Source: Acidimicrobiales bacterium mtb01 (GTDB taxonomy: Bacteria; Actinomycetota; Acidimicrobiia; Acidimicrobiales; Ilumatobacteraceae). From it: a DNA stretch of 54,808 bases. The translations under genes and the position numbers were made by a program. Shown piece after piece: positions 9,820 to 43,010 of this stretch. The notes under the pieces were generated by a model. That model was not told the origin of the DNA and did no database searches. It saw only the letters and a program-made list of their open reading frames with translations. The stretch lies in NCBI GenBank assembly GCA_004379135.1, contig NBNI01000001.1, forward strand, positions 1 to 54,808, given 5' to 3'. Each line of letters starts with the position of its first letter. Positions within the stretch are counted from its first letter, which is position 1.

Positions 9820-10623
9820 ATGGGGACGGCGCACGACATCATCCAGCGATTCGGCTCGGTCGAGGACGACCAGAAGTACACGAGGCTCGTCGAGTTGTTC
9901 ACCGACGACGCGGTGTACTGCGATCCCTTCGCCGGCGCCCAGCGCGGCAAGGCGGCCATCGCCGACTTCATGGGCGAGATGGAGCGGATCATTCCGAAGA
10001 TGGGCGTGTACTTCGCCAACTGGGAGACCAGGGCCGATTCGCACGTCGGATGGTCGCGTTGGGAGATGGTGGTGCCCGTCGACGGTGTGGAGCATCCCAT
10101 CAAGGGCCAGAGCCTGTATCGGCTCCGTGACGGCAAGGTGTGCTTCGCCGCCGACTACGTGGACTCGGCTGCGTACCGCCGCATCCGTCCCGACCGCGCT
10201 CCCGACCTGGGTTTCGCGGCCGCCGAGAACAAGGGCACGAGTGCGGGTGGACCGGCCGCCGATTTGGTTCGCCGCTTCTGGGAGTTGCAGACCTCGGCGC
10301 GCTACGGCGAACTGGCCGCACTCTTCGCTCCCGACTCGGTGTTCACCGATCAGGTCTACGGAGTGTTCGAAGGCCACGCCGCGGTGAGCGCGTATCTGCG
10401 TCGCATGGAAACCGAGATGCCCGATGAGGGAGTCACGTTCACGCTCGACGATTGCGGTGGCGAGGAGACCGTGGCGTGGTCGCAGTGGACGTGCCACGTT
10501 CCGAACGGGTCGTTCCCCGGTTGGACTCTGCACACCCTGCGCGACGGCTTGTTCACCCTCGATTCCGACTACTTCGACGTGGTCAAGGCCCGCCAGCTCC
10601 ACAAGGCGCGGCACGCCGGCTGA
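9820..10623 (+). CDS. Tandem SnoaL/NTF2-like protein
   Basis: A 267-aa protein made of two NTF2/SnoaL-like domains. The first (about 1-125) has IIQRFGSVEDDQKYTRLVEL followed by AVYCDPFAGAQRGKAAI. The second (about 145-265) repeats the plan with LVRRFWELQTSARYGELAAL and SVFTDQVYGVFEGHAAV. These cone-shaped alpha+beta domains act as small-molecule isomerases, hydrolases or binding scaffolds; tandem fusions are less common than single domains. No catalytic residues can be assigned with confidence. ATG 9820 is chosen because the longer open frame would begin inside tRNA-Ala. It ends 18 nt before the convergent L,D-transpeptidase gene. Confidence 0.75.
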   Translation: MGTAHDIIQRFGSVEDDQKYTRLVELFTDDAVYCDPFAGAQRGKAAIADFMGEMERIIPKMGVYFANWETRADSHVGWSRWEMVVPVDGVEHPIKGQSLYRLRDGKVCFAADYVDSAAYRRIRPDRAPDLGFAAAENKGTSAGGPAADLVRRFWELQTSARYGELAALFAPDSVFTDQVYGVFEGHAAVSAYLRRMETEMPDEGVTFTLDDCGGEETVAWSQWTCHVPNGSFPGWTLHTLRDGLFTLDSDYFDVVKARQLHKARHAG

Positions 10624-10641
10624 GCCGGGCACCCGCGGACG

Positions 10642-11430
10642 TCAGCGTCCGACCACGACGACGACGGTGCCGACACCGGCCCATCCGTACACGCGCTTGG
10701 CGTCGTTGAACGCCAGGCGGGCGCAGCCGTCGGACAACGGCCAGCCCAGGTCGTCGATGCTCTGCACGAGTTGGTTGCGAACACTCGGGATGCCGTGCGT
10801 GCCCACACTCGACACCGTGCGCTGGTAGCGCACCATGAAACGTCCGGAAGCACCTTCGGGAGTCCACAGTCGCTCGCTCTTCGAATAGACGCGGAAGCGA
10901 CCGCGCAACTCGTAACCCGATTCGGTCGGACGGCGTCGACCCGACATGAGGAAGGTGGATGCCACACGACCACTCGATTCGACCAGCCACACCTGCTGTG
11001 CGGTGATGTCGATCACCATGCGTCGCCCTGATCCCGAATCGGCGGGCAGTGGAAGCAGGCGATTTCCGGTGAGCAGTGTGATGCGGCCCAGACTCTTCAC
11101 CACCGTGTCGTCACCCGACATCGCCTCGACCACGAGCGTGATGGTCGACCCGAACGGTGCCGGCGCGCGGAGCCACAGATCGAGCGGCCCGGGCTCGTGT
11201 GGCACCAGGCCGACCTGAATGGACTTGTCGGCATTGCGATACCGAACGTGGTCGGCGTCGGTCGGAACTTCGGGCCCGATGAGATGGAAGAGTCCGGCAT
11301 CGGACTGCGAATCATCGGCCAGTCGCAAGGGTGATGGCTCGGGTGGGATCGACGCTCGAGCGTCAAGCGTGTGAAAGGGTACGAGAAGTGCAGCGGCCAA
11401 CAGGATCGAGTGCACGACGAACCGCTTCAT
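10642..11430 (-). CDS. Exported L,D-transpeptidase (YkuD family)
   Basis: A 262-aa protein with an N-terminal signal sequence (MKRFVVHSILLAAALLVPF). The C-terminal half is a YkuD domain: IDITAQQVWLVESSGR, then GTHGIPS and the active-site segment LSDGCARLA containing the catalytic Cys. The usual SHGC is SDGC here, which is unusual, although the upstream HG histidine is present. These enzymes form 3-3 peptidoglycan cross-links or attach proteins. The middle (about 30-140) is a beta-rich region of unknown role. The start is the ATG that begins the signal peptide. It follows the SpoU methyltransferase gene by 13 nt on the same strand. Confidence 0.8.
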   Translation of the reverse strand: MKRFVVHSILLAAALLVPFHTLDARASIPPEPSPLRLADDSQSDAGLFHLIGPEVPTDADHVRYRNADKSIQVGLVPHEPGPLDLWLRAPAPFGSTITLVVEAMSGDDTVVKSLGRITLLTGNRLLPLPADSGSGRRMVIDITAQQVWLVESSGRVASTFLMSGRRRPTESGYELRGRFRVYSKSERLWTPEGASGRFMVRYQRTVSSVGTHGIPSVRNQLVQSIDDLGWPLSDGCARLAFNDAKRVYGWAGVGTVVVVVGR

Positions 11431-11443
11431 CACGACGAGTGTG

Positions 11444-12301
11444 TCATGCGGAGCGATGCGTGATTGCGAACGCCACCGCGGCCGCATGGCCCACGTTGAG
11501 CGAGTCGACATCGGAGGCGATCGGAATGCGCACTCGTGAATCACAGGCGTCGAGAGTCGTCGCGTGGAGACCGAAACCCTCGCTGCCGAGAACGAGAGCG
11601 AGCGGTCGATCAATCCGGACGTCGATCGTCGCCAGACTCGGTGCGGATCGATCGGGTGTGAGTGCGAGCGAGGTACCGCCATGGCGGCGCACCGCCGTGA
11701 TGACGTCGGCGATCGACGAACGCACGACGGGAAGGAAGAGGATCTCGCCCATCGACACGCGGATGGTCCGCCGGTAGAACGGGTCAGCGCAGGTCGGATC
11801 GAGGACGAGGGCATCGATCCCGAAAGCTCGGGCCGAACGAGCGATGGCTCCGAGGTTCTCGTGGTCGTTGAGACCCTCGAGGACGGCCAGGCGGTGCGGA
11901 CGGCCGTGTGAAGTGGGTCGAGCCAGAACATCGTCGAGGCTCGGTGGCACGGGGCGCGCAGCCGATGCGATGACTCCGCGGTGGAGGTCGAATCCGGCCA
12001 CCGCAGAGATCACGGCCCGCTCGGCGACGAAGACGGGCGCATCGACACCATCGAGTGCGGCGGCCATGTCGTCGACGCGATTCGGGGCCAACACGATCGA
12101 ACGAATGGGCAGACCACTGGCCACCAGGCGGCGCACCACCTCGGGTCCTTCTGCGATGAAGAATCGATCGGCCTCGTGACGACGCACGATGTCGCGGTCG
12201 GTCAACCCGATGTAGTCGGCCAGACGAGGGTCGGCCGGGTCGTCGATCGTCGGCCATGGATGCACCACTCCATTCTTGTTGGTCGCGTGGTCGGCGATCA
12301 T
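11444..12301 (-). CDS. SpoU/TrmH-family RNA 2'-O-methyltransferase
   Basis: A 285-aa protein with all three SPOUT/TrmH motifs: NHENLGAIARSARAFG (motif 1, Asn and Arg in place), LVLGSEGFGL (motif 2) and IPIASDVDSLNVGHAAAVA (motif 3). The N-terminal part (HEADRFFIAEGPEVVRRL) resembles the substrate-binding domain of rRNA or tRNA ribose methyltransferases. Motif 3 usually reads SLNVSVA; here it is SLNVGHA, a small deviation. The particular RNA target cannot be named. It is divergent from the FAD-reductase gene at 12343 (41-nt gap) and probably co-transcribed with the L,D-transpeptidase gene downstream, although no functional tie is evident. Confidence 0.85.
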   Translation of the reverse strand: MIADHATNKNGVVHPWPTIDDPADPRLADYIGLTDRDIVRRHEADRFFIAEGPEVVRRLVASGLPIRSIVLAPNRVDDMAAALDGVDAPVFVAERAVISAVAGFDLHRGVIASAARPVPPSLDDVLARPTSHGRPHRLAVLEGLNDHENLGAIARSARAFGIDALVLDPTCADPFYRRTIRVSMGEILFLPVVRSSIADVITAVRRHGGTSLALTPDRSAPSLATIDVRIDRPLALVLGSEGFGLHATTLDACDSRVRIPIASDVDSLNVGHAAAVAFAITHRSA

Positions 12302-23738: not shown

Positions 23739-23821
23739 GGGCGAGTGGCGGAATGGCAGACGCGCTGGCTTCAGGTGCCAGTGTTCGCAAGGACGTGGGG
23801 GTTCAAGTCCCCCCTCGCCCA
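23739..23821 (+). tRNA. tRNA-Leu (CAG anticodon)
   Basis: A class II tRNA with a long variable arm. The acceptor stem GGGCGAG pairs with CTCGCCC, the anticodon loop TTCAGGT gives CAG, and the T arm is GGGGG-TTCAAGT-CCCCC. The discriminator is A, with no encoded CCA. It is the last core gene before the accessory region, and tRNA 3' ends are favoured integration sites; the integrase gene starts 592 nt downstream. I could not find a second copy of its 3' end in the window. Confidence 0.96.
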
Positions 23822-23928
23822 CAAAATCGTGTGACCGGTCCCACAACGACCGAGCAGTATCCGATACTGAGCGTCAACTGACGCTCGTCGCGCCGAACAG
23901 TGCCGATTCCCCTGACGTGAGTACAGGG

Positions 23929-24417
23929 ATGACGGCGATCAAGCGGGCACAGGTGGTGGCGGGCCGGCTTCGAGCTGCCGCCGAAACGCCTCGCCCGGAT
24001 GCAGTCGGCGGCGATGTCGCCCCCGTCCTCGCCGGGGTGCGTCGCCTCGCCAGTTCGCTCCCGACGTGGGACGGAACGTGCATCGTCGGCCGGCTCGACG
24101 ACCGGCGCCGTCTCTCGCTCGGCGGACTCGACGACATCGACGGTGTTCTCGACACGCATTTCAGTGGACCGTGGGTCGTGCTCACCAGCGGTGCGGCCGG
24201 ACGAGTACGGGGACGCTGCGCCATCGACCGCCGCCATCGCAGCGGTCGCATCGACCGCCGACTCCGGCTCTCAGGAGCGGTGGCGTCACATCTCCACCTC
24301 GACGTCGGTGACCTCGTGCTCGTCTACCCGGACCCTGCAGCGCAGCGCCTTCTCGTCACCTCCCCAATGGTCCTCGCTGCTGCGGTCGCCCCACTCGGTT
24401 TGGAGGCTGCGGGATGA
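23929..24417 (+). CDS. AbrB-like protein coupled to the integrase
   Basis: A 162-aa protein with no confident family. Its C-terminal third (LRLSGAVASHLHLDVGDLVLVY, then RLLVTSP) resembles the swapped-hairpin AbrB/SpoVT/MraZ DNA-binding fold, in which a basic strand is followed by a helix and a GD turn. An earlier stretch, CIVGRLDDRRRLSL, may be a second hairpin. Its stop codon overlaps the integrase start (ATGA), so the two are made together, which is the position often held by excisionases or integrase regulators. A GTG at 23917 is an alternative start. The function as a directionality factor or repressor is inference. Confidence 0.65.
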   Translation: MTAIKRAQVVAGRLRAAAETPRPDAVGGDVAPVLAGVRRLASSLPTWDGTCIVGRLDDRRRLSLGGLDDIDGVLDTHFSGPWVVLTSGAAGRVRGRCAIDRRHRSGRIDRRLRLSGAVASHLHLDVGDLVLVYPDPAAQRLLVTSPMVLAAAVAPLGLEAAG

Positions 24418-25667
24418 ACGCACCTCGCTCCCGTGTGCTCGACTCGGTCATCGACCTCCTCGATGCGCACGGCATCACGATGGACGAACTCCAGAGTCGC
24501 CTCGCAGGCCGCGGCGGTGTCGGCGTCACCCTCGGCGAGTTTCTCGACGACGAGCTCGCCAAGCTCACGTTCAACACTCGACGCACGTACGCCACCTCAC
24601 TGCAGCGACTGGCCGACGGCGCAGGACCGCACTGTGAGTGCGACTGCGCTCAATGCTCCGATACCACCGACGGTTGCGACTGCGAATGCAGGAAGTGCCG
24701 AACATCCAAGGTGCTCCTCGAACCGCTCAGAGATGTGCCGCTGACGTCGGTCACCTTCCGACAGCTTGAAGCAGCAGTCATCATCGCCCGGCGGGTCGCA
24801 CATAAGCGGGGCACCCAGGAGAACCGCCGACGCGCCGCCCGGGGTCGTGCAGCCAAGGCCGTTCACGGCAAGGGTGCAGCGGAAACCGCGGTGAACGCCT
24901 ACCGCTGGCTGTTCCTCAGGGCACGCCTCGTCGGACATATCCACAGTGACCCTGCGGTCGACCTGAAGATTCCACGACGCAGCGACACCCGCCGCAGGGC
25001 GCTCGCACCCAACGAGTTCGAGCCGTTCTTCGACGCCGTTGCCGGTGGTGGTGACGACCCCGAGCTCGACACGCTGCTGTGCTGGTTCCACGCCGAGACC
25101 GGAGCCCGCCGCGAAGGCGGCGTCGGACTGACCTGCGGGACGCTGCACGACGAACGACAGATGATTCGGCTCTCAGAGAAGTTCGAACTCGAGCGTGACC
25201 AACCCGTGTCCGCCGAACTCATCTCAGCATTACGGGCGCACGCCATCGAGCGAGGCGGGCCACGCTGCGACCCGACATCACCGTCATACGACCTCGAGTC
25301 ACCCGTGTTCTGGTACCGGGCGCGCGGCGGCCAACCATGCCGACCACTTACTGGCCGCCGCTACGACACGCTGTTCCAGCGCGTCCAGGCCACCCTGCCT
25401 TGGGCCGATCAGGTGGCGTTCACCGCACACGGGCTGCGCCATACGGCCGGCACGCTTGTCGAGCGACTCGCCGGCACGCAGGTCGCCCGCAGGTTCCTCG
25501 GTCACGCAGACCGCACCGTCACCGACACCTACACCGACGCGTCCGAGGCGGAAGTCGCAGCAGCCGTCGCACGACTCACCGGCCGACCACACCCACTCGT
25601 GCCGGCGCCAGGCGCACCCTCGGTCATCCCCACACAGCAGTTGGAGGAAAGGTCAGGACCGACCTGA
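24414..25667 (+). CDS. Tyrosine recombinase with Cys-rich insert
   Basis: A 417-aa phage-integrase-family recombinase. Catalytic residues: R232 in TGARREGG, H339 and R342 in HGLRH, H364 in GHAD, and nucleophile Y373 in TDTYTDAS. The N-terminal core-binding domain contains an unusual insert with eight cysteines at 74, 76, 78, 81 and 88, 90, 92, 95, a perfectly repeated C-x-C-x-C-x2-C pattern that probably binds zinc. It is coupled to the AbrB-like gene and lies just downstream of tRNA-Leu, so it probably integrates the accessory region there. A copy of codons around 364-406 occurs again at 27340-27466. Confidence 0.92.
   Translation: MNAPRSRVLDSVIDLLDAHGITMDELQSRLAGRGGVGVTLGEFLDDELAKLTFNTRRTYATSLQRLADGAGPHCECDCAQCSDTTDGCDCECRKCRTSKVLLEPLRDVPLTSVTFRQLEAAVIIARRVAHKRGTQENRRRAARGRAAKAVHGKGAAETAVNAYRWLFLRARLVGHIHSDPAVDLKIPRRSDTRRRALAPNEFEPFFDAVAGGGDDPELDTLLCWFHAETGARREGGVGLTCGTLHDERQMIRLSEKFELERDQPVSAELISALRAHAIERGGPRCDPTSPSYDLESPVFWYRARGGQPCRPLTGRRYDTLFQRVQATLPWADQVAFTAHGLRHTAGTLVERLAGTQVARRFLGHADRTVTDTYTDASEAEVAAAVARLTGRPHPLVPAPGAPSVIPTQQLEERSGPT
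25502..25631 (+). repeat. Integrase 3' end, direct repeat copy 1
   Basis: This 130-bp part of the integrase gene (from GHAD through the C-terminal tail) matches 27340-27466 in the same orientation with most bases identical, including an uninterrupted stretch around the codons for TYTDASEA. The two copies flank the lipoprotein/I36 pair between them. Confidence 0.85.
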
Positions 25668-25776: not shown

Positions 25777-26730
25777 CTAACTTGCAAGAAGCTCCGTTGC
25801 GCGGCCAATGGCCTGGCCGATTGTCAGCCGGTACTCCTCGATCACACCGAGGTTGGCATCGACTAGACCCTCCATCGACCGCTGCCACGCACGTCCGAAC
25901 ACTTCTCGCAGCCGACTCGATCGTGTGCACGAGCGGTCTGCGGTCCACACCGACATCGCTTCATCGGGATGCTGGTATGCGTACTGGCGGGCTTGCGTGA
26001 AGTGCTCGAACGCCCAGCCGCTGGCCGACATGCAACGAGCCCACTCTGCCCGCGCCGTGACAACATCTGGGTCGGCATTTGCCGACGTCACTGCAGTGAC
26101 GCTGATGCTCGCGACACCCATCTCAAACATGATTGCGTTTTCCGCCGAGCCAAACAGCGCGACGCGTGCCTCGGTCAGGCAACCTGTCTTCGGAATCGAG
26201 ACCTGACTCCCGTCCGGCAGGTTGACGGTGACTGCGTCGTCGAACTCTCCAAGCGCTGCTCGACTCCACGCAATTCGGGTCGCGTCGTCCAATGAGTTGG
26301 CATATGCGTCGTTGTCGAACACTCGGGCAGGGGCCACAGGCAGCGGAAGGTAACCAGTCGGTTCGATCACGTCATCAAGCGGTCTGTCTGCTCGATCTTC
26401 GTCCTGGCGCGCCTCAGCCATTGCGGATGCAGTCGCTATGTCGATTGCTACGAATCGGAAGCCCTTACGGCTCATGCACTCCGCAACCAGCCGCTCGCTC
26501 GCAAACGCGAGCGCCGCGCGGTCGTTGACCGAGACGTTCGGCAGCGCAAATCCCTGCAATACAGCAGCGTCCGAAGTGGCGGAGGCGCCGCCGGCTGCCG
26601 ACACGTCATCTGTGCCCGGGCCGTTCGTATCTCGATCGGTAGGCAAACCGGAAGACGTGCTCTGTCCATCGCAGCCCGTGAGTAACAGTGCCGCTAGCGC
26701 CAACAAGAGATGGGCTCGGCCAAGCCGCAT
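25777..26730 (-). CDS. Four-Cys lipoprotein, pair A
   Basis: A 317-aa lipoprotein with signal peptide and lipobox LLLTGC (Cys20), then a low-complexity Ser/Thr/Gly linker. The folded part shows the signature shared by at least four proteins in this window: ECMSRKGF, then GCLTEARVALFG, then WARCMSASGW, then DRSCTRSSRL. That is four conserved Cys beyond the lipid Cys, likely two disulfides. No known domain is recognised. The start ATG follows directly after the TAG stop of the upstream secreted-peptide gene (TAGATG), so translation is coupled. I infer a surface-anchored partner or immunity-like protein for that peptide. Confidence 0.8.
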   Translation of the reverse strand: MRLGRAHLLLALAALLLTGCDGQSTSSGLPTDRDTNGPGTDDVSAAGGASATSDAAVLQGFALPNVSVNDRAALAFASERLVAECMSRKGFRFVAIDIATASAMAEARQDEDRADRPLDDVIEPTGYLPLPVAPARVFDNDAYANSLDDATRIAWSRAALGEFDDAVTVNLPDGSQVSIPKTGCLTEARVALFGSAENAIMFEMGVASISVTAVTSANADPDVVTARAEWARCMSASGWAFEHFTQARQYAYQHPDEAMSVWTADRSCTRSSRLREVFGRAWQRSMEGLVDANLGVIEEYRLTIGQAIGRATELLAS

Positions 26731-27564: not shown

Positions 27565-28050
27565 ATGAATCCGATCCACACAAGCTCGCGGAGATTTGTC
27601 ACCTCAATCTGCGTGCTCGCAATCACCCTCGTCGTCCCGTTCCTTATCACCGGACGTGCAGATGCCCTCACCTACACGGTGTCTCAGTGCGGTTCAGGCG
27701 ACATCTGCATTTCGGATGGTACGAGTTTCTCGACATCCTCAACCGCCTCATCCGGGTGCACGATGGCGGGTTGGGATCTTCTCACAAGCGAAACTGGTAT
27801 CACCATCAACTTCTATAACTATTCGTATGGTGGATCGGGATGTTCCAACTACACGACAGTGAACAACGCCGATCAGGTGAGGAACCGCATGTCGGCCTCT
27901 GGACGGACAGCTTGCTACTACAACGAGCCGAATCTTGTCGCTCCGGTGTTCGCGCTGCCCTATAACTCAACCACCTGGAACACGCTGGCGTCTGCCTACC
28001 GAAATCAGACATCTTCCATCACCGCGGTCGTAGCAGGTGCATCCTGTTGA
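27565..28050 (+). CDS. Secreted Cys-rich crystallin-like peptide, pair B
   Basis: A 161-aa exported protein with a signal peptide to about residue 34, then CGSGDICISDG (C42, C48), further Cys at 65, 93 and 117, VRNRMSASGRTACYYN, and the ending YRNQTSSITAVVAGASC with Cys161 last. The plan (N-terminal CxxxxxC, NxTSS-type turns, C-terminal Cys) parallels pair A, but the sequence is strongly diverged. An AAGGA ribosome-binding site precedes ATG 27565. The lipoprotein gene starts inside its stop codon (TTGA overlap). Assignment to the I36 superfamily is tentative. Confidence 0.7.
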   Translation: MNPIHTSSRRFVTSICVLAITLVVPFLITGRADALTYTVSQCGSGDICISDGTSFSTSSTASSGCTMAGWDLLTSETGITINFYNYSYGGSGCSNYTTVNNADQVRNRMSASGRTACYYNEPNLVAPVFALPYNSTTWNTLASAYRNQTSSITAVVAGASC

Positions 28051-28919
28051 GAGCCGTTGTATTGCTGTGGGCCGGCCTTACGCTGACCACTGTCGGATGC
28101 GGAGCCAACGGTGACGAGAAGTTGGAGACAGGTGGTTCTACTGCTGAGTCACTCGGCACGGAGATCGCCACGTCGGGCGTCGCGTATGCCCCGGTCTCCA
28201 GTTTCTACTCCACGTTCGGTCCCCCACCATCTCTCATTCAGGCTCTACACGTTGAGTGGCAACAGCAAGTACTTACCTGCATGACTGGAGCCGGCTTTCC
28301 TGACTACCAGGTCCTCCCGAAGCCGGAAGGCCCCTTTCGGCCAGTACGACACGATGAGTTGGCTCGGGACGAGTTGGAGGTGATGGGCTTTCTTCCCATC
28401 AGTAACGTTGACCAGCTTTACGCTCGAGCCGCCGACGATCAGGACGCGCGGCTCGAGTCGGACGGCGCATTCCGCGCCGCGTTGGTCGGCGATGAATCAT
28501 CCACGAGTACTGGATGTGCAGGTAGTGCTCGGTCCGATGTTTATGGCGTAGACAATGTGCTCACCTCGACTGCTGCACTGCTCTCCAATCTTGACTCTGA
28601 GGTCTTGGTTCGCGTGCTTTCGAGTTCTGACTACACATCGTTGGAGCACGACTGGAGCGAGTGCATGGAGGAGAAGGGAGAGACTTTCTCGACCCGCTCC
28701 TCCATGTTCAATCGCACCTGGGAAGCACCGAGGCCATCGTCCGATGAGATTCGTGTATCCCTCGCTGACTTTGACTGTCGTGCGGTCGTCAACTTCGGCG
28801 AGAGGTATGCCTCGATTTCAGAACCGATCTTTCGGTTGATCGCAGAGGACAACGCCGAGCAACTGGCGGATGCTACGAGCCAACTCGATGACTTGGCGCA
28901 AACGGTTGAGGTCCCATAG
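28047..28919 (+). CDS. Four-Cys lipoprotein, pair B
   Basis: A 290-aa lipoprotein (TTG start; lipobox TTVGC, Cys18). It carries the family signature: TCMTGAGFPDYQVLPKP, GCAGSARSDVYG, WSECMEEKG and DFDCRAVVNFG. The order and spacing match pair A and the copies at 32996 and 53044. The TTG overlaps the TGA of the peptide gene, which forces coupling and supports this start. No domain of known function is present. Expected location is the outer face of the cytoplasmic membrane. Confidence 0.78.
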   Translation: MRAVVLLWAGLTLTTVGCGANGDEKLETGGSTAESLGTEIATSGVAYAPVSSFYSTFGPPPSLIQALHVEWQQQVLTCMTGAGFPDYQVLPKPEGPFRPVRHDELARDELEVMGFLPISNVDQLYARAADDQDARLESDGAFRAALVGDESSTSTGCAGSARSDVYGVDNVLTSTAALLSNLDSEVLVRVLSSSDYTSLEHDWSECMEEKGETFSTRSSMFNRTWEAPRPSSDEIRVSLADFDCRAVVNFGERYASISEPIFRLIAEDNAEQLADATSQLDDLAQTVEVP

Positions 28920-29214
28920 CCAGTCGATTCGCTCCAACTCGTGCGGAATCTATGTTGCGACGCCAGTTGCAGCAGGCCTTGCTCCGATAGGTCACTCCTC
29001 CGGCGTTCGCGTCGGCATCCAAGGAAAGGGAAGATAGGCGGTCTCGCCTCTTGCCGGTCGGCTAACTCACGCCGGGTGTCAGAAGGTGGCTGTGCCACGA
29101 CGTTGAGTCCTCGCGTCTGGAATGCGAAGCCCGCAACGTGGTGTGCATCGAGCGAAGGCTCCAAAGGTTGCGCTCTGCTCGACTGGGCCCAGCGGTCCGA
29201 CTGCACCGGGTTGT
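28920..29214. other. Gap between pair B and the sigma-WhiB gene
   Basis: No convincing gene, repeat or strong hairpin is seen. It should hold the promoter of the sigma-WhiB gene, but I cannot point to clear -35/-10 boxes. Confidence 0.4.
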
Positions 29215-30183
29215 ATGACAACTCGAAACAACCACCAACGCCATCAACTTCACGAACAGTTGCTCGCTGTCCATCGGGCCGGCCTGGCTGCTGCCGCGAC
29301 GGTCGAGACCGCCGCCAACCGAATCGTCCGTCGCCGTGCGATCCGCGAAGGCGACAGAGCCCTCGAGGACCTACTTCGGGATCTCGATGGCCTGCTCCGC
29401 TACTTCGCACGTCGCTTCGCACACGACCACCACGACTTGGAGGACCTCATGCAGACGGCACGGCTCCATGCAGTCCGAGCACTTCCGTCGTGGCAGCCGA
29501 ACGGCGGGGCGACCATCGCCACGTGGGTGGCAACGTTCCTCCACTCCGAGTTGCGCTCCGCAATCCGTCGCATCCGCCCCCACCACGAGGTCCTGACCTC
29601 CTTCGACATCAATGCACTCGACGACCTCGGACTCGAGCCGTGCGTGGTCGAACAGGCCTTCGAGTTCGTCGAATCCGCCACCGATACCGGTGACCGCCTC
29701 GACCGGCTGCACTCGACGCTCGATCCGCACGACGCTCTTCACCTCGCCGAGATGGCTCGCGGCGACGTGGGCGCCGCAGGGTCAGCGTGGGCCCGCGGTC
29801 GAGTTCGCGCCCTCGTCGCTCACCCGACAAGCGGCGTCATGCAGACCACCGCAACGTCCTCTCCATTCCCGAGACCGTCAACACCGATCGACATCGATGC
29901 CGACACCGCGTGGGTGGCAGCCAACCCCGAACCACAACCGAACTGGACGGTCCTCGCCCGCTGTGCCGGAGATGAGCAGGCGGACTATTTCCCGCCCCGC
30001 GGTGTCGCATACGCGGATTCGACCATCGAGCGCTGTCGAACCTGTCCGGTACGCCTTGACTGCCTCGCCGCAGGATCGCAGGACTCCACCTGGCCCGGCA
30101 TGTGGGGCGGTCACCCGCTTCGAGCACGCACAGCGATCCGAAAAGCCATGCGAACCAAGCACTCCAAGGTCACTACCAAATGA
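29215..30183 (+). CDS. Sigma-70 region 2 fused to a WhiB domain
   Basis: A 322-aa protein with two recognisable parts. Residues 52-120 are sigma-70 region 2: LLRYFARRFAHDHHDLEDLMQ (core binding), GGATIATWVATFLHSELRSAIRR (-10 recognition side). Residues about 225-310 are a WhiB-like domain with C250, C274, C277 and C283 (C-x23-C-x2-C-x5-C, the 4Fe-4S ligands) and the GMWGG turn. A possible degenerate region-4-like helix pair lies near 168-205. WhiB proteins normally bind a separate sigma factor; here both sit in one chain, so a redox- or NO-sensitive sigma factor is a reasonable inference. Start chosen at ATG 29215; the ribosome-binding site is weak. It is coupled (ATGA) to the next gene. Confidence 0.82.
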   Translation: MTTRNNHQRHQLHEQLLAVHRAGLAAAATVETAANRIVRRRAIREGDRALEDLLRDLDGLLRYFARRFAHDHHDLEDLMQTARLHAVRALPSWQPNGGATIATWVATFLHSELRSAIRRIRPHHEVLTSFDINALDDLGLEPCVVEQAFEFVESATDTGDRLDRLHSTLDPHDALHLAEMARGDVGAAGSAWARGRVRALVAHPTSGVMQTTATSSPFPRPSTPIDIDADTAWVAANPEPQPNWTVLARCAGDEQADYFPPRGVAYADSTIERCRTCPVRLDCLAAGSQDSTWPGMWGGHPLRARTAIRKAMRTKHSKVTTK

Positions 30184-30854
30184 GTATGGAACACATCACT
30201 GAGTCCAGCATTGCCATCAACCGCGCCTCCCGCATCGCGTTGCGAGCATCCTCACCCGATGCCGACGACTACCTCGCCGGCTGGCTGCTTGGATCACTGC
30301 AGCGCTGGTGGATGATGCACCGACGACTCGTCACGGAAGCGGGTGTTCGCGACGTCTTCGCCGATGCCGTCGAGTCGTCGCTCCAACACCTCGAGCGCAC
30401 GGACGGAGACCGACGTGTCCTCACTGGCTTCGTCGCCAGCCTGCGAGACAGCGAGCCGGCGGTCCGCTACGCCGTCGCACGAGCGGTCGTCGTACACCTC
30501 GGTCTCGACCCGGACGCCACCGTGCTCTCGCAACACCTCAGCGAATGGGACTACGCGCCGACGAGCGTTGAGGGAGACACCGACGAGGAGGCCGCCGCCT
30601 ACCTAGGATCGCTGACCCGGCAGTCCATCATCCTCGTCGCCGACCCGGACACGTCACCGGAAACACGGGAAGAGATCATCGCCACCGCTTACTCGAACTT
30701 GCGACACATCGCATGCACTCGTTCGCGCAACGACGACTTGTGGACAGCTGTAACGGCCGGCCTTCACGCATTCCCTGGAGACGACGACCTCACGCGACTC
30801 GCCCGAATCTCATGCGTCGTGGAGTGCCTTGACATTTGCAGGGATACGCCGTAG
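30180..30854 (+). CDS. Unknown protein coupled to sigma-WhiB gene
   Basis: A 224-aa, acidic, apparently all-helical cytosolic protein. I recognise no family. It starts within the stop codon of the sigma-WhiB gene (ATGA), so the two are made together. Stretches such as YLAGWLLGSLQRWWMM, SEPAVRYAVARAVVVHLGLD and TREEIIATAYSNLRHIAC suggest HEAT-like helical pairs. By position it could be an anti-sigma or co-regulator, but nothing in the sequence proves this. There are no membrane segments and no Cys cluster. Confidence 0.7.
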   Translation: MSMEHITESSIAINRASRIALRASSPDADDYLAGWLLGSLQRWWMMHRRLVTEAGVRDVFADAVESSLQHLERTDGDRRVLTGFVASLRDSEPAVRYAVARAVVVHLGLDPDATVLSQHLSEWDYAPTSVEGDTDEEAAAYLGSLTRQSIILVADPDTSPETREEIIATAYSNLRHIACTRSRNDDLWTAVTAGLHAFPGDDDLTRLARISCVVECLDICRDTP

Positions 30855-31088
30855 TGCCATGCCCGGGAACGCTTCTTTATTGGGGGGTAGAGCGTTACCC
30901 GTCAGTTGAGCACCGATCTCAGGGCGACGGCCGCCATCGGATCTGGACGTGAGCCGAGGGCCCGGGGTTGCTCAGGCGATCGCCGTCCGCCGCCTCAACG
31001 ACTCGTCGCGAGGCCTTGGAACGCCTGAGGCCCACGCGACACCTATCGATTGACCACACTCGGTTCGGTCGAAGGGAGGAACTCAAGC

Positions 31089-31988
31089 ATGACGCGACTT
31101 CGACCTCAGTCGCGATCGCGACGGCTCGCCTTTGCACTGCTGCTGGCTCCGGTGGCGGCTGGGGCGGGCTGTAGTCCATCGTCGGGTTCGACGGACTCGA
31201 CGAACCAGCAGCAGAACGTTGCGACCACGGACGACGTCACGCCGCTGCCCCTGGAGGATCGACTGACTCGGGTACTCGGCCACTCACTTGCAGAGATCTT
31301 TCGTGCTGTCGAATCGGTGCGACGCGACTGGATCGTCACGTGTGTCACTGACAGGGGATGGATGTTGACCGCCGAACAGCAGCGCAACCTTGGCCCTGCG
31401 CCCGCGCCCGGGTCGGGGTACGCGGAACAGATCGCCGACGCGATCGAATCCGGCGAGCTGGCAGCGGTCGCATCCGGGCAGCAAGAAGCCGAAGACCCGG
31501 CGTTCGCTGGGGCCGTCACCGATTGCGTGTCGAAGGCCGAGTCGGAGTTTCCGAACCCGAACGCTTCGATACTCGACCAGCTCGAGCAGTTCAACGTCGA
31601 CGTAGCAGGCCGAGCCCAGGCAGACCCGAGAACCGTGGCTGCTGCGTCGGAGCGAGAGGAGTGCCTTGCTTCCACGGGTATCGCGGCCGGCCCTGGTGGA
31701 TCTCTGGCAGACGCCCTTGCGTTCGAGATCGATTCCGTCGTGTCCTCGTTCGTTTCGAGTGGGCTTGGCAGTGAGGAAGCAGTGCGAGAGCTGCGGCAAC
31801 TCGCTCAGGCGGAGCGACTCGTCGCAGATTGCCTCCAGGCCTACGCCAATGTGGAGGACATGGTCGTCGGCGAAGTGCAGACCGATCTGCTCGGGCAAAA
31901 TCCTGGACTGCTGGAGGGGATCGCCGAGCAGGTGGTCGTTGAGTTGCAGCGGTACGAGCAGTATCTCGACAGCGATCCGTCCACGTGA
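31089..31988 (+). CDS. Lone Cys-containing lipoprotein C
   Basis: A 299-aa lipoprotein (lipobox AGAGC, Cys28), with a Ser/Thr/Asn-rich linker and a helical domain. Cys-centred motifs TCVTDRGW, DCVSKAESEF, EECLASTG and DCLQAYANVEDM are reminiscent of the pair-type lipoproteins, but spacing differs and the W-x-x-C-M motif is absent, so it is a distant member at best. A GGGAGG ribosome-binding site lies 9 nt before ATG 31089. Unlike the others it has no secreted-peptide gene upstream; the 234-nt gap after the previous gene has none. Confidence 0.7.
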   Translation: MTRLRPQSRSRRLAFALLLAPVAAGAGCSPSSGSTDSTNQQQNVATTDDVTPLPLEDRLTRVLGHSLAEIFRAVESVRRDWIVTCVTDRGWMLTAEQQRNLGPAPAPGSGYAEQIADAIESGELAAVASGQQEAEDPAFAGAVTDCVSKAESEFPNPNASILDQLEQFNVDVAGRAQADPRTVAAASEREECLASTGIAAGPGGSLADALAFEIDSVVSSFVSSGLGSEEAVRELRQLAQAERLVADCLQAYANVEDMVVGEVQTDLLGQNPGLLEGIAEQVVVELQRYEQYLDSDPST

Positions 31989-32995: not shown

Positions 32996-33880
32996 ATGCG
33001 AGGCAGACATGTGGTTATTTCCATGGCGTTCCTTTTGTGCGGGTGCGCGAGTGGCTCTCTACCCACAACCTCAGACAGCCGTTTGGTTGAGTCCACGTTG
33101 TCCGATGCAGTTGCACCGAACCCGGAGCGGTTTCCGGTGGGACGGGAATGGCGGCAGGTCTATGGCTTCTTCCTAGGTGGAGATGATGAGTCGCGCGTGT
33201 ACGCACTGTGGCAGTCAGCTATCGAGAGCTGTATGACGCGTCGCGGCTCTGACTATCTCGCCCTGCCGCCTCCAGAGGACCAGGGTTACCTACCCAACCC
33301 GCTCGACGCTGCTGCTGCTCTGAGCCTTGGTTACCATTCGGGCGTTGCGCAAGTCGCACCGAATCCCAATGATCAACGGGCCAATAGCGACCCCGCCTAC
33401 GCCCTTCTGCTTTTCGGGAATGATGAAAGACCGGGCTGTATACCACTTGCGTCGCAATTTGCCTACGGCGACGGCGGCGGCGAGTACATTGACAGTCTGA
33501 ACTCCCTATCGGCCTCGATGCAGGAGGCTCAGGCGCGTTGGTTCGGGAGTCCGGACCAGATCAGCATCACAGAGCGTTGGTCGGAATGTATGAAGTCGAG
33601 GGGATATGACTTCCCAACACCCGATGCACCTCGCTCGCTGTATGCCGAGGAGCGTGAAATATCACAGGCAGAGCTTGACACCCGTTCGGCGGACCTCGAA
33701 TGTGATCGAGCAACTGGATTGACCGTCGCGAGATCAAACGCGGAGCGTGAACTGTTGAAGGCCTGGGCGCAGGACAATGAAGCGGCGATCGCAGCGACGA
33801 TCGAAGCGCGCGCGACGTACCTTGCGTCGCTTGCAACCAAGGAGTCATCCATCGCAGACGGAACAGCTGCGATCGGTTAG
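32996..33880 (+). CDS. Four-Cys lipoprotein, pair D
   Basis: A 294-aa lipoprotein (lipobox LLCGC, Cys17). Signature motifs: SCMTRRGSDYLALPPP, GCIPLASQFAYG, WSECMKSRGYDF and DLECDRATGL, matching pairs A, B and E in order. Residues in the second half are charged and helical (ERELLKAWAQDNEAAIAATIEAR). The reading frame is intact even though its upstream peptide gene is cut short, so selection may still act on it. No enzymatic motif is seen. Confidence 0.78.
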   Translation: MRGRHVVISMAFLLCGCASGSLPTTSDSRLVESTLSDAVAPNPERFPVGREWRQVYGFFLGGDDESRVYALWQSAIESCMTRRGSDYLALPPPEDQGYLPNPLDAAAALSLGYHSGVAQVAPNPNDQRANSDPAYALLLFGNDERPGCIPLASQFAYGDGGGEYIDSLNSLSASMQEAQARWFGSPDQISITERWSECMKSRGYDFPTPDAPRSLYAEEREISQAELDTRSADLECDRATGLTVARSNAERELLKAWAQDNEAAIAATIEARATYLASLATKESSIADGTAAIG

Positions 33881-41655: not shown

Positions 41656-42417
41656 TCATGGGAACTTGACGATCTGGATGATGCGACCCGTCACATCCAC
41701 GGTCGCCTTCGCGCAGGTCGCCGCAACGGAATCGGGGCGTGTCTCGACGCTCCAGCCGACGATGTTCAGCTCCTCGATGAGCCGATGCGCGCTCGTGGCA
41801 GCGGCGTCCGCAGCGACACACGGTCCCTGGTTGATCTCCGCCGCCACTCGATCCTGCAACAGCACGAGGGCCTGGTTCGACGGGTCAAGTGTCGGATCGG
41901 CGTCGATGAGACCGAGCGAGCGACATGTGTCGGTCGAACCGGGATACACCTCGACCACACCGATGGTAGAGATACACGCGACAAGGGGAGGAATGCCATC
42001 GATGGAACCTGACATCTCGCCGAACCTGCCCTCGCGCCACAACTCACGGCAGCCACCGAGCGCATCGCTGGTCGGTTCGATCACGATGACGTCCGCGTCG
42101 GCCGCAGACCCCGAGCGGCACGCGATGCCAGCCGTCGGCTGGGCCGGTTGGCCGAGACGAACCAGGGCCGCCACTCCGACCGCGCTCCCAGCCACGACCG
42201 CTGTCGAGAGCAGACCAACGGCAAGAACGCGCCGACGCCGACTCGAGTCACGTTGTCGATGACGAGCCATCCGGGAACCGGACACGATGTCGGCGACCAC
42301 GCGATCCACGAAGGCCGGTGACAGTGGATCAACTCCATCTCCCCACAGTTCGGGGCGTGCCCCGATGCAACGCGCGATGATGTCGCGGTCGCCGTCGTTG
42401 CCGGGTTCTGCGGTCAT
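41656..42417 (-). CDS. Single-pass membrane protein, anti-sigma position
   Basis: A 253-aa protein with a cytosolic N-terminus (residues 1-64, containing SPAFVDRVVADIVSG), one membrane helix at about 65-85 (VLAVGLLSTAVVAGSAVGVAAL), and an extracytoplasmic domain with several Cys (GIACRSG, GGCRELW, VACIST, DTCRSLG, GPCVAA, ATCAKA). Its start overlaps the sigma factor stop (ATGA). Position and topology fit an anti-sigma factor, but no ZAS zinc motif is present, so the role is inferred from context only. Confidence 0.7.
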   Translation of the reverse strand: MTAEPGNDGDRDIIARCIGARPELWGDGVDPLSPAFVDRVVADIVSGSRMARHRQRDSSRRRRVLAVGLLSTAVVAGSAVGVAALVRLGQPAQPTAGIACRSGSAADADVIVIEPTSDALGGCRELWREGRFGEMSGSIDGIPPLVACISTIGVVEVYPGSTDTCRSLGLIDADPTLDPSNQALVLLQDRVAAEINQGPCVAADAAATSAHRLIEELNIVGWSVETRPDSVAATCAKATVDVTGRIIQIVKFP

Positions 42418-43010
42418 GGCGCTGTCCTTTCCTGAGCAGCGTCGGCCTCGGTGCCGGGAAGTGGATCGCTCGTCAGGGCGACGAACTGGCGTCGAAACGC
42501 GAGCCGCGCCACCATCAATCGCTTTCGGGCCGCGCCAGCGCTGATCCCGAGTTCGCGTCCGATCGCTGGCCCATCGTGGCCGAGCGCGTCGAGGATCAAC
42601 ACTCGCCGATCCACGTCGCGAAGCAACTGCAACGCCCGTTCAACCTCCCGGAGCACAGCTCGCTGCTCGTCCTCTTGGCCGGCCTGCTCGATCTCGTCCT
42701 CCGCGGTCAACTGCAGCTCCAGAGGTTCGGTGGCCAGACGATCCAGCATCCTTCGCCACGAGATGTTTCTCCGCCCGTGGTTCGCGACGAGATAGAGCGA
42801 TGTCCGGATGAACCACCCCCGCTGCCGACCGTCGGACAACCCTATGAGTTCGTCGAGACGGCGAAACGCCAGCAAGAACACGTCCGACCAGAGGTCGTCG
42901 ACGTCATCCCGGTTGCGTTCCGAGCGCGAAAGAACGACACGGACCATTCGTCCATGTACGGAGATCAAGGCCCGAAGGGCCGCTTCGCGTTCGTCGTTGT
43001 CGTCAGCCAC
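42414..43010 (-). CDS. ECF-type sigma-70 factor
   Basis: A 198-aa sigma factor. Region 2 is about residues 15-80 (DDVDDLWSDVFLLAFRRLDEL, RGWFIRTSLYLVANHGRRN); region 4 is about 120-180 (LLRDVDRRVLILDALGHDGPAIGRELGISAGAARKRLMVARLAF) with an HTH. It starts at a GTG at 43010 and leads the operon of a membrane protein, a crystallin-like secreted protein and an ABC exporter, so it probably drives its own operon. No -35 element for ECF sigma could be fixed by eye in the 87-nt upstream gap. Confidence 0.9.
   Translation of the reverse strand: MADDNDEREAALRALISVHGRMVRVVLSRSERNRDDVDDLWSDVFLLAFRRLDELIGLSDGRQRGWFIRTSLYLVANHGRRNISWRRMLDRLATEPLELQLTAEDEIEQAGQEDEQRAVLREVERALQLLRDVDRRVLILDALGHDGPAIGRELGISAGAARKRLMVARLAFRRQFVALTSDPLPGTEADAAQERTAP

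Follow-up and report, generated by a model that had tools for sequence, protein, structure and literature searches.

The window, a stretch of 54,808 nucleotides that is an entire contig of Acidimicrobiales bacterium mtb01, carries on its forward strand a gene (29215-30183) whose 322-residue product joins a sigma factor region 2, a linker and a WhiB domain in a single chain. The frame starts at the ATG at 29215 and ends with the stop codon at 30181-30183; an in-frame extension to the ATG at 29122 would give a longer N-terminus, but is disfavoured by the G+C content of the three codon positions, which differs between the frame itself (0.70/0.53/0.73) and the extension (0.68/0.74/0.52). The Sigma70_r2 domain spans residues 56-119 (29377-29571), was found with Pfam (44.3 bits against a cut-off of 24, E 1.5e-11) as well as in a scan of the whole genome, and retains Q80 of the region-2.2 motif and T103-W104 of the region-2.3 motif. 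The WhiB domain at residues 244-307 (29944-30135), likewise found in both ways (38.0 bits against a cut-off of 23.6, E 2.4e-9), covers profile positions 1-64 of 65 and contains C250, C274, C277 and C283 in the pattern C-X23-C-X2-C-X5-C, followed by GMWGG, in which the methionine is a slight departure from the G[I/V]W[G/A]G turn of Wbl proteins. Thus, the domain search proposed in the earlier note bears out its central claim, namely that a region 2 and a complete four-cysteine WhiB domain with GMWGG share one chain, both Pfam matches lying above their cut-offs. In a PDB search, the C-terminal part of the protein had its best match among solved WhiB proteins in 8dy9 (E 4.1e-6), and the N-terminal part its best match among sigma factors in 8b3z (E 0.0054), while the NCBIfam sigma70-ECF model aligned with residues 49-124, the region-2 half, at E 5.8e-10, a match that scores under the model's own cut-off. 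In the translation, the WhiB domain is followed by a basic tail (residues 308-322, 30136-30180), a putative DNA contact. An AlphaFold model computed without an alignment reached a mean pLDDT of 35 and drew the linker (residues 120-243, 29572-29943) as helices to about residue 200, at a confidence too low to be usable.

The genome holds a second fusion. A protein search with the window fusion returned a match on contig C1 (40%, residues 9-318), where a protein of 323 residues, P0001, is 41% identical to it; the Sigma70_r2 (E 1.5e-7) and WhiB (E 4.1e-9) matches of P0001 both exceed the Pfam cut-offs, its turn reads GIWGG, and all four WhiB cysteines are kept in a pairwise comparison with the window copy. 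Their retention between copies that have diverged to 41% identity suggests selection. Directly upstream of the second fusion, and overlapping it by ATGA, the translation reveals a WhiB-only gene of 178 residues, P0004 (L039:5324-5860, contig C1), which has the WhiB part and the last stretch of the linker in common with the two fusions (38% over 127 positions in one comparison and 33% over 128 in the other). All three proteins have R....L.AHP..G or a close form of it before the WhiB domain; in the window fusion, this common linker motif is RGRVRALVAHPTSG (residues 194-207, 29794-29835).

Both fusion genes also overlap a gene at their 3' end. In the window, the stop codon of the fusion forms an ATGA overlap with a 224-residue partner gene (30180-30854, forward strand), and the 3' end of the second fusion overlaps a 144-residue partner gene, for which we chose the start codon. 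The two partners match each other over 77 residues, within the C-terminal 80 residues or so of the window partner (36%, E 3e-9 in a single comparison). A profile of this shared part found both partner places in the genome itself, together with a weak third on contig C5 (E 0.126); it had no match at E<=0.001 in 297 other genomes of the order, and one weak match in 149 other genomes of the family (G050, E 7.3e-4, in a 520-codon frame). The best Pfam match of the window partner is HEAT at E 0.0088, below the cut-off, no helix-turn-helix (HTH) or region-4 match was reported by Pfam for either partner, and AlphaFold predicts the window partner as all helical with a mean pLDDT of 53. The codon-position G+C is alike in both fusion copies and both partner genes. 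As the second fusion lies on a separate contig and the genes overlapped by the two fusions are homologous to each other, chance or misassembly is an unlikely origin for the architecture. The overlap of fusion and partner, both of which occur twice in the genome, suggests a real transcription regulator, and the conservation of the overlapping gene means that the fusion protein might not act alone. No sequence common to the upstream regions of the two operons was found: their best match, 15 of 24 positions, is no better than the 15-17 obtained in 12 single-base shuffles, and a shared promoter was therefore rejected.

The setting of both genes suggests mobility. A tRNA-Leu (CAG; 23739-23822, forward strand), a possible integration site of an island, and an adjoining tyrosine recombinase of the phage integrase family (24414-25667, forward strand; Pfam E 9.1e-10) are situated 3.5 to 5.5 kb upstream of the window fusion. 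This succession of tRNA and recombinase (23739-25667) resembles the left border of an integrated island; a downstream repeat of the 3' end of the tRNA was not found on the window contig. Within about 5 kb of the second fusion lie a tyrosine recombinase and a CBASS-like pair of an oligonucleotide cyclase and a NucC-type nuclease (L039:7321-8825 and 10060-11562), and also an N6/N4 DNA methylase (L039:4304-5110). From this we infer that the two fusions reside on mobile elements. Around the window fusion, four proteins of about 300 residues, predicted to be secreted and lipoprotein-like, appear alike by eye (25777-26730 on the reverse strand; 28047-28919, 31050-31988 and 32996-33880 on the forward strand), three of which have no Pfam match over the cut-off. 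Further downstream, an ECF-type sigma factor (42414-43010, reverse strand) is the reverse of the fusion in having a region 4 (E 6.6e-6) and a weak region 2 (E 0.02); by eye, it resembles another locus of the genome, L099 (G000:C4:8971-9174).

Is a region 4 hidden in the fusions? For the window fusion, Pfam reported no domain besides Sigma70_r2 and WhiB, and for neither fusion any region-4 model, at a maximum E of 10, for which the effective limit is nearer 0.1, since the HMMER filters drop most matches above about that value. As a control, we took the 15 places in the genome with a Sigma70_r2 match at E<=1, two of which are the fusions, and ran the other 13 through Pfam: all 13 have a region 4 at E<=1.4e-4, 12 of them over a cut-off. 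The statement of the earlier note that a normal region 4 is not evident thus holds for both fusions, against 13 of 13 other sigma-type proteins that are positive in the same search. A hidden ECF-type region 4 is likewise unsupported, as a profile of the fusion linkers aligned with eight ECF region-4 sequences of the genome at an hhalign probability of 0.5% (E 0.12). For a region 4 of the sigma-A type, the hhalign global alignment has a probability of 0.2%, and the best local match is to the HP tail alone, which speaks against this candidate as well. The linker of the second copy has a sub-threshold match to HTH_32 (residues 171-197, E 0.75, 10.8 bits against a cut-off of 33.7) and may hold a much-changed HTH.

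How widely does the architecture occur? The search for it elsewhere, which had been proposed along with the domain search, was successful in the organism itself, where it yielded the second fusion on contig C1, and gave no third full-length relative in samples from genus to phylum, in GTDB, or in viruses, phages and plasmids. Beyond the two copies, full-length relatives were found in none of 23 other genomes of the genus, 297 of the order, 394 of the class and 395 of the phylum, samples that overlap so that the counts are not additive, and in none of 149 other genomes of the family among the matches listed. These scans score the best first-look candidates, five per genome for class and phylum and nine for the order, and they recovered both fusions each time. 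The remaining listed matches are WhiB alone or region 2 alone, except for two longer kinds. Several candidates were rejected upon inspection: a 214-residue match in G101 that contains two TGA codons (L109) is by eye an ordinary ECF factor with its region 4 between the stops; L057, L058 and L060-L062 are ECF factors, L058 being cut by the contig end before a complete region 4; L106 is RpoD-like; and the long frame of L073 has an ordinary WhiB part, with no region 2 seen. Nine WhiB matches (L110-L118), most of which extend into the linker, were set aside since none of the nine likely proteins contains R..L.AHP; the string AHPTS does occur ahead of the likely start of L117, which indicates that such a string can arise by chance. 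In the genome itself, L006 (G000:C1:435193-435393) is an ordinary WhiB domain in an open frame of 487 codons and could be part of a longer protein. Two scans of 84,980 GTDB species with short peptide patterns, a method that finds close relatives best, returned 383 and 341 stretches, none of which was confirmed, and three such scans of viruses gave no fusion. The window fusion has no match in phages and plasmids at 1e-5. With looser limits, the second fusion matched six phage records, all of them WhiB genes and none with a place covering 80% of the query, and the window fusion matched 51 plasmid records, the best 20 of which are WhiB or sigma genes where annotated, some being unannotated; 80% of the query is covered in none of the 51.

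The residues on which function would depend are kept to different degrees. The glutamine of region 2.2 has a role in clamp binding. In an alignment of the fusions with 12 sigma rows from the same genome, it is kept in the window fusion (Q80) and in nine of the 12 rows, while the position is a glycine in the second fusion and likewise in L098, a sigma factor with a region 4; the tryptophan of region 2.3 is kept in both fusions (W104 in the window copy). For the Wbl half, alanine substitution of F31, F32 or W76 in WhiB3, which correspond to F17, F18 and W60 of WhiB1, abolishes the complex with sigma-A in pull-downs, as does substitution of H516 in sigma-A (PMC10245118). Counted from the first cysteine and the GxWGG turn, the window fusion has W244, Y258, F259 and W297 at WhiB1 W3, F17, F18 and W60; the same four positions are W, V, M and W in the second fusion and W, A, V and L in P0004. 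Since the aromatic pair is F-F in all seven other Wbl proteins of the genome, and Y-F, V-M and A-V in the three proteins of the fusion group, the group, to judge by these positions, departs from the usual Wbl contact in trans, the window copy least of the three. Having a glycine for the region-2.2 glutamine and no F-F pair, the second fusion either works differently, or the glutamine and the pair are dispensable.

Our preferred reading, to which we give a probability of roughly 40%, is that the fusion is an Fe-S-gated, sigma-like transcription factor in which a Wbl module takes the position of region 4, and that it is probably carried by an integrated element. As it does in sigma-70 proteins, region 2 would dock on the core RNA polymerase clamp and open the -10 element. 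A [4Fe-4S] cluster would be bound by the WhiB part, which would occupy the region-4 site near the beta flap and the -35 side and leave the basic tail free for contact with DNA. Whether this cluster is intact, nitrosylated or oxidised would then decide if transcription starts at a limited group of promoters, possibly the element's own, and the partner protein would perhaps hold or release the fusion protein. In favour of this reading are the two domains over the Pfam cut-offs in both copies, the failure to detect a region 4 in either while all 13 other sigma-type proteins have one, the retention of Q80 and W104 in the window fusion, and the overlapping frames with homologous partners at both loci; a precedent is provided by CorE, a sigma factor controlled by a metal-sensing cysteine domain that is fused to it (PMC8999054). 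It is weakened by the second fusion, which has neither the region-2.2 glutamine nor the F-F pair and whose linker gives the sub-threshold HTH_32 match, and by the lack of a common sequence upstream of the two operons. The more specific proposal of the earlier note, a self-contained sigma factor responsive to redox or NO in which WhiB replaces region 4 in the -35-side contacts, is plausible, yet it is complicated by V-M at the F17/F18 positions of the second fusion and by the conserved overlapping partner genes.

Of the alternatives, the one that survives best is that the fusion is a decoy, with region 2 filling the clamp of RNA polymerase or WhiB capturing region 4 of sigma-A, such that the housekeeping holoenzyme is blocked or redirected, for instance to the advantage of the element. 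The lack of a detected region 4, set against the 13 of 13 in the control, would fit such a role, as would the integrase genes near both loci and the W, Y, F and W at the Wbl interface positions of the window fusion; however, the region-2.3 tryptophan is kept in both copies, which is beyond the needs of a pure blocker, and the aromatic pair is lost in the second fusion. We consider a decoy unlikely. Still less likely is an adaptor in trans in the manner of WhiB3 or WhiB7, whose WhiB domain would bind region 4 of sigma-A while region 2 would be a vestigial or regulatory appendage. The window fusion does have Y258, F259 and W297 at the contact positions that are needed in WhiB3 (PMC10245118), but the departure of the fusion group from the F-F pair of the other Wbl proteins argues against it, and its region 2 should compete with region 2 of sigma-A for the site on the core enzyme, in which case the two halves of the fusion could not work in one complex.

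We are more doubtful again about a split sigma factor, in which the fusion would supply region 2 and another protein region 4. The precedent is SigO-RsoA, where regions 2 and 4 reside on separate proteins (PMC8103513), and an overlapping partner gene is conserved at both loci; however, neither partner has an HTH or region-4 match in Pfam, and the best match of the window partner is the weak, sub-threshold one to HEAT. Least probable is that the gene belongs to an integrated element, is decaying and serves no function at present. Although the fusion is known from one genome among those searched, its domains score modestly and the two copies differ in some functional residues, two intact frames at 41% identity have kept the overlapping partner and the linker motif as well as the four cysteines and the GxWGG turn, with codon-position G+C alike in both copies and both partners.

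Within the reading of the fusion as a sigma-like factor, the linker motif could hint at how the two halves meet. R..L.AHP resembles the C-terminal tail of region 4.2 of sigma-A, with weak and mixed support. Two sigma factors of the genome, L086 and L087, end in RALGKLRHPS and RAMSKLRHPS, the histidine of which aligns with H516 of the 528-residue mycobacterial SigA, and the SigA-like L088 has RLRHMAGG in the alignment with SigA, with the histidine present and the proline absent. The docking tail for Wbl proteins thus varies within one genome, being LRHMAGG in L088 and LRHPS in L086 and L087, and SigA-like factors of relatives have tails such as LRHVAS. We scored 14-residue windows against seven of 11 collected sigma tails, with 72,900 windows as background, taken from six-frame open stretches of at least 150 codons, a set that extends beyond real genes. 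The best window of P0004, ELRAMSLLAHPASG, outscores the entire background (p 1.4e-5 per window, about 0.001 per linker), while the fusion linkers score more weakly, at about 0.11 per linker each with all tails and at 0.017-0.16 and 0.056-0.11 with other tail sets; all of these values are post hoc, since the likeness to the HP tail had been spotted by eye before testing. The N-terminal ELRAMSLLAHPASG of P0004 is close to the tail of L087, EARAMSKLRHPSS. With hhalign, the linkers align with the same 12 tail columns of sigma-A region 4 at E 0.046 in a single comparison and a probability of 1.2%. With hmmsearch, P0004 was placed at the sigma tail (E 0.045 among three short pieces) and the two fusions were not aligned there; when five whole proteins were scored, the partner P0002 equalled P0004.

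In the scenario that this likeness evokes, one chain carries both halves of the interface between sigma factor and Wbl protein: region 4 would have collapsed and lost its HTH, with a docking tail, RxRxLVAHPxSG, surviving in the linker. The fusion's own WhiB domain would dock there, comparable to the docking of WhiB3 on the sigma-A tail around H516, and the Fe-S cluster would act as a latch within the protein, giving the -35-side surface of a minimal sigma factor its shape or uncovering it. We regard this internal docking as improbable, having lowered our estimate because the partner scores equal to P0004 and the SigA-like L088 has the histidine without the proline; the loss of the F-F pair in the second fusion counts against it too.

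How does the sigma-like reading of the fusion relate to known systems? CorE-like ECF sigma factors, formerly ECF44 and now within ECF238, have a C-terminal cysteine-rich metal-sensing domain and thus, like the fusion, combine a sigma region 2 with a cysteine-based metal sensor in one chain, with no separate anti-sigma factor (PMC8999054). The fusion may work in the manner of such a sensor-bearing sigma factor, but CorE keeps region 4 and senses copper through its cysteine-rich domain, whereas the fusion has a sensor of the Wbl type and, as no region 4 was found, is not a CorE-type factor. With WhiB1, WhiB3 and WhiB7 it shares the four cysteines, the GxWGG turn and a basic tail at the C-terminus, and the window copy also has aromatic residues at the positions that contact sigma; WhiB1, WhiB3 and WhiB7 act in trans, on the primary sigma factor's region 4, whereas the Wbl module of the fusion is covalently joined to a sigma region 2. 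ECF41 factors keep region 4. SigG1 (ECF56) is a sigma factor with a fused C-terminal regulatory domain that also occurs in actinobacteria; it differs in keeping region 4 and in an extension that is not a WhiB domain (PMC7730460). In SigO-RsoA, a region 2 likewise comes without a region 4 of its own (PMC8103513), the differences being that no region-4 partner was found for the fusion in the overlapping genes and that it ends in a WhiB domain. For ECF58 factors, an iron-sulfur protein is encoded nearby (PMC8999054). In the titles and the beginnings of abstracts among the open-access papers listed, we found no fusion of sigma region 2 and WhiB; the Wbl review PMC6282962 contains no words that start with 'fusion', and the ECF reviews PMC8999054 and PMC8103513 contain none that start with 'WhiB'. 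Such a fusion has apparently not been described so far.

If the fusion works as a sigma factor, region 4 would be replaceable by an Fe-S sensor, and the protein would offer a small, single-chain model of the way in which Wbl proteins link the chemistry of their cluster to the choice of promoter. The fusion would further hint, on genetic grounds, that sigma factors and Wbl proteins are partners close enough to be fused. The integrase genes near both loci suggest, moreover, that a mobile element may time its transcription by a redox signal.
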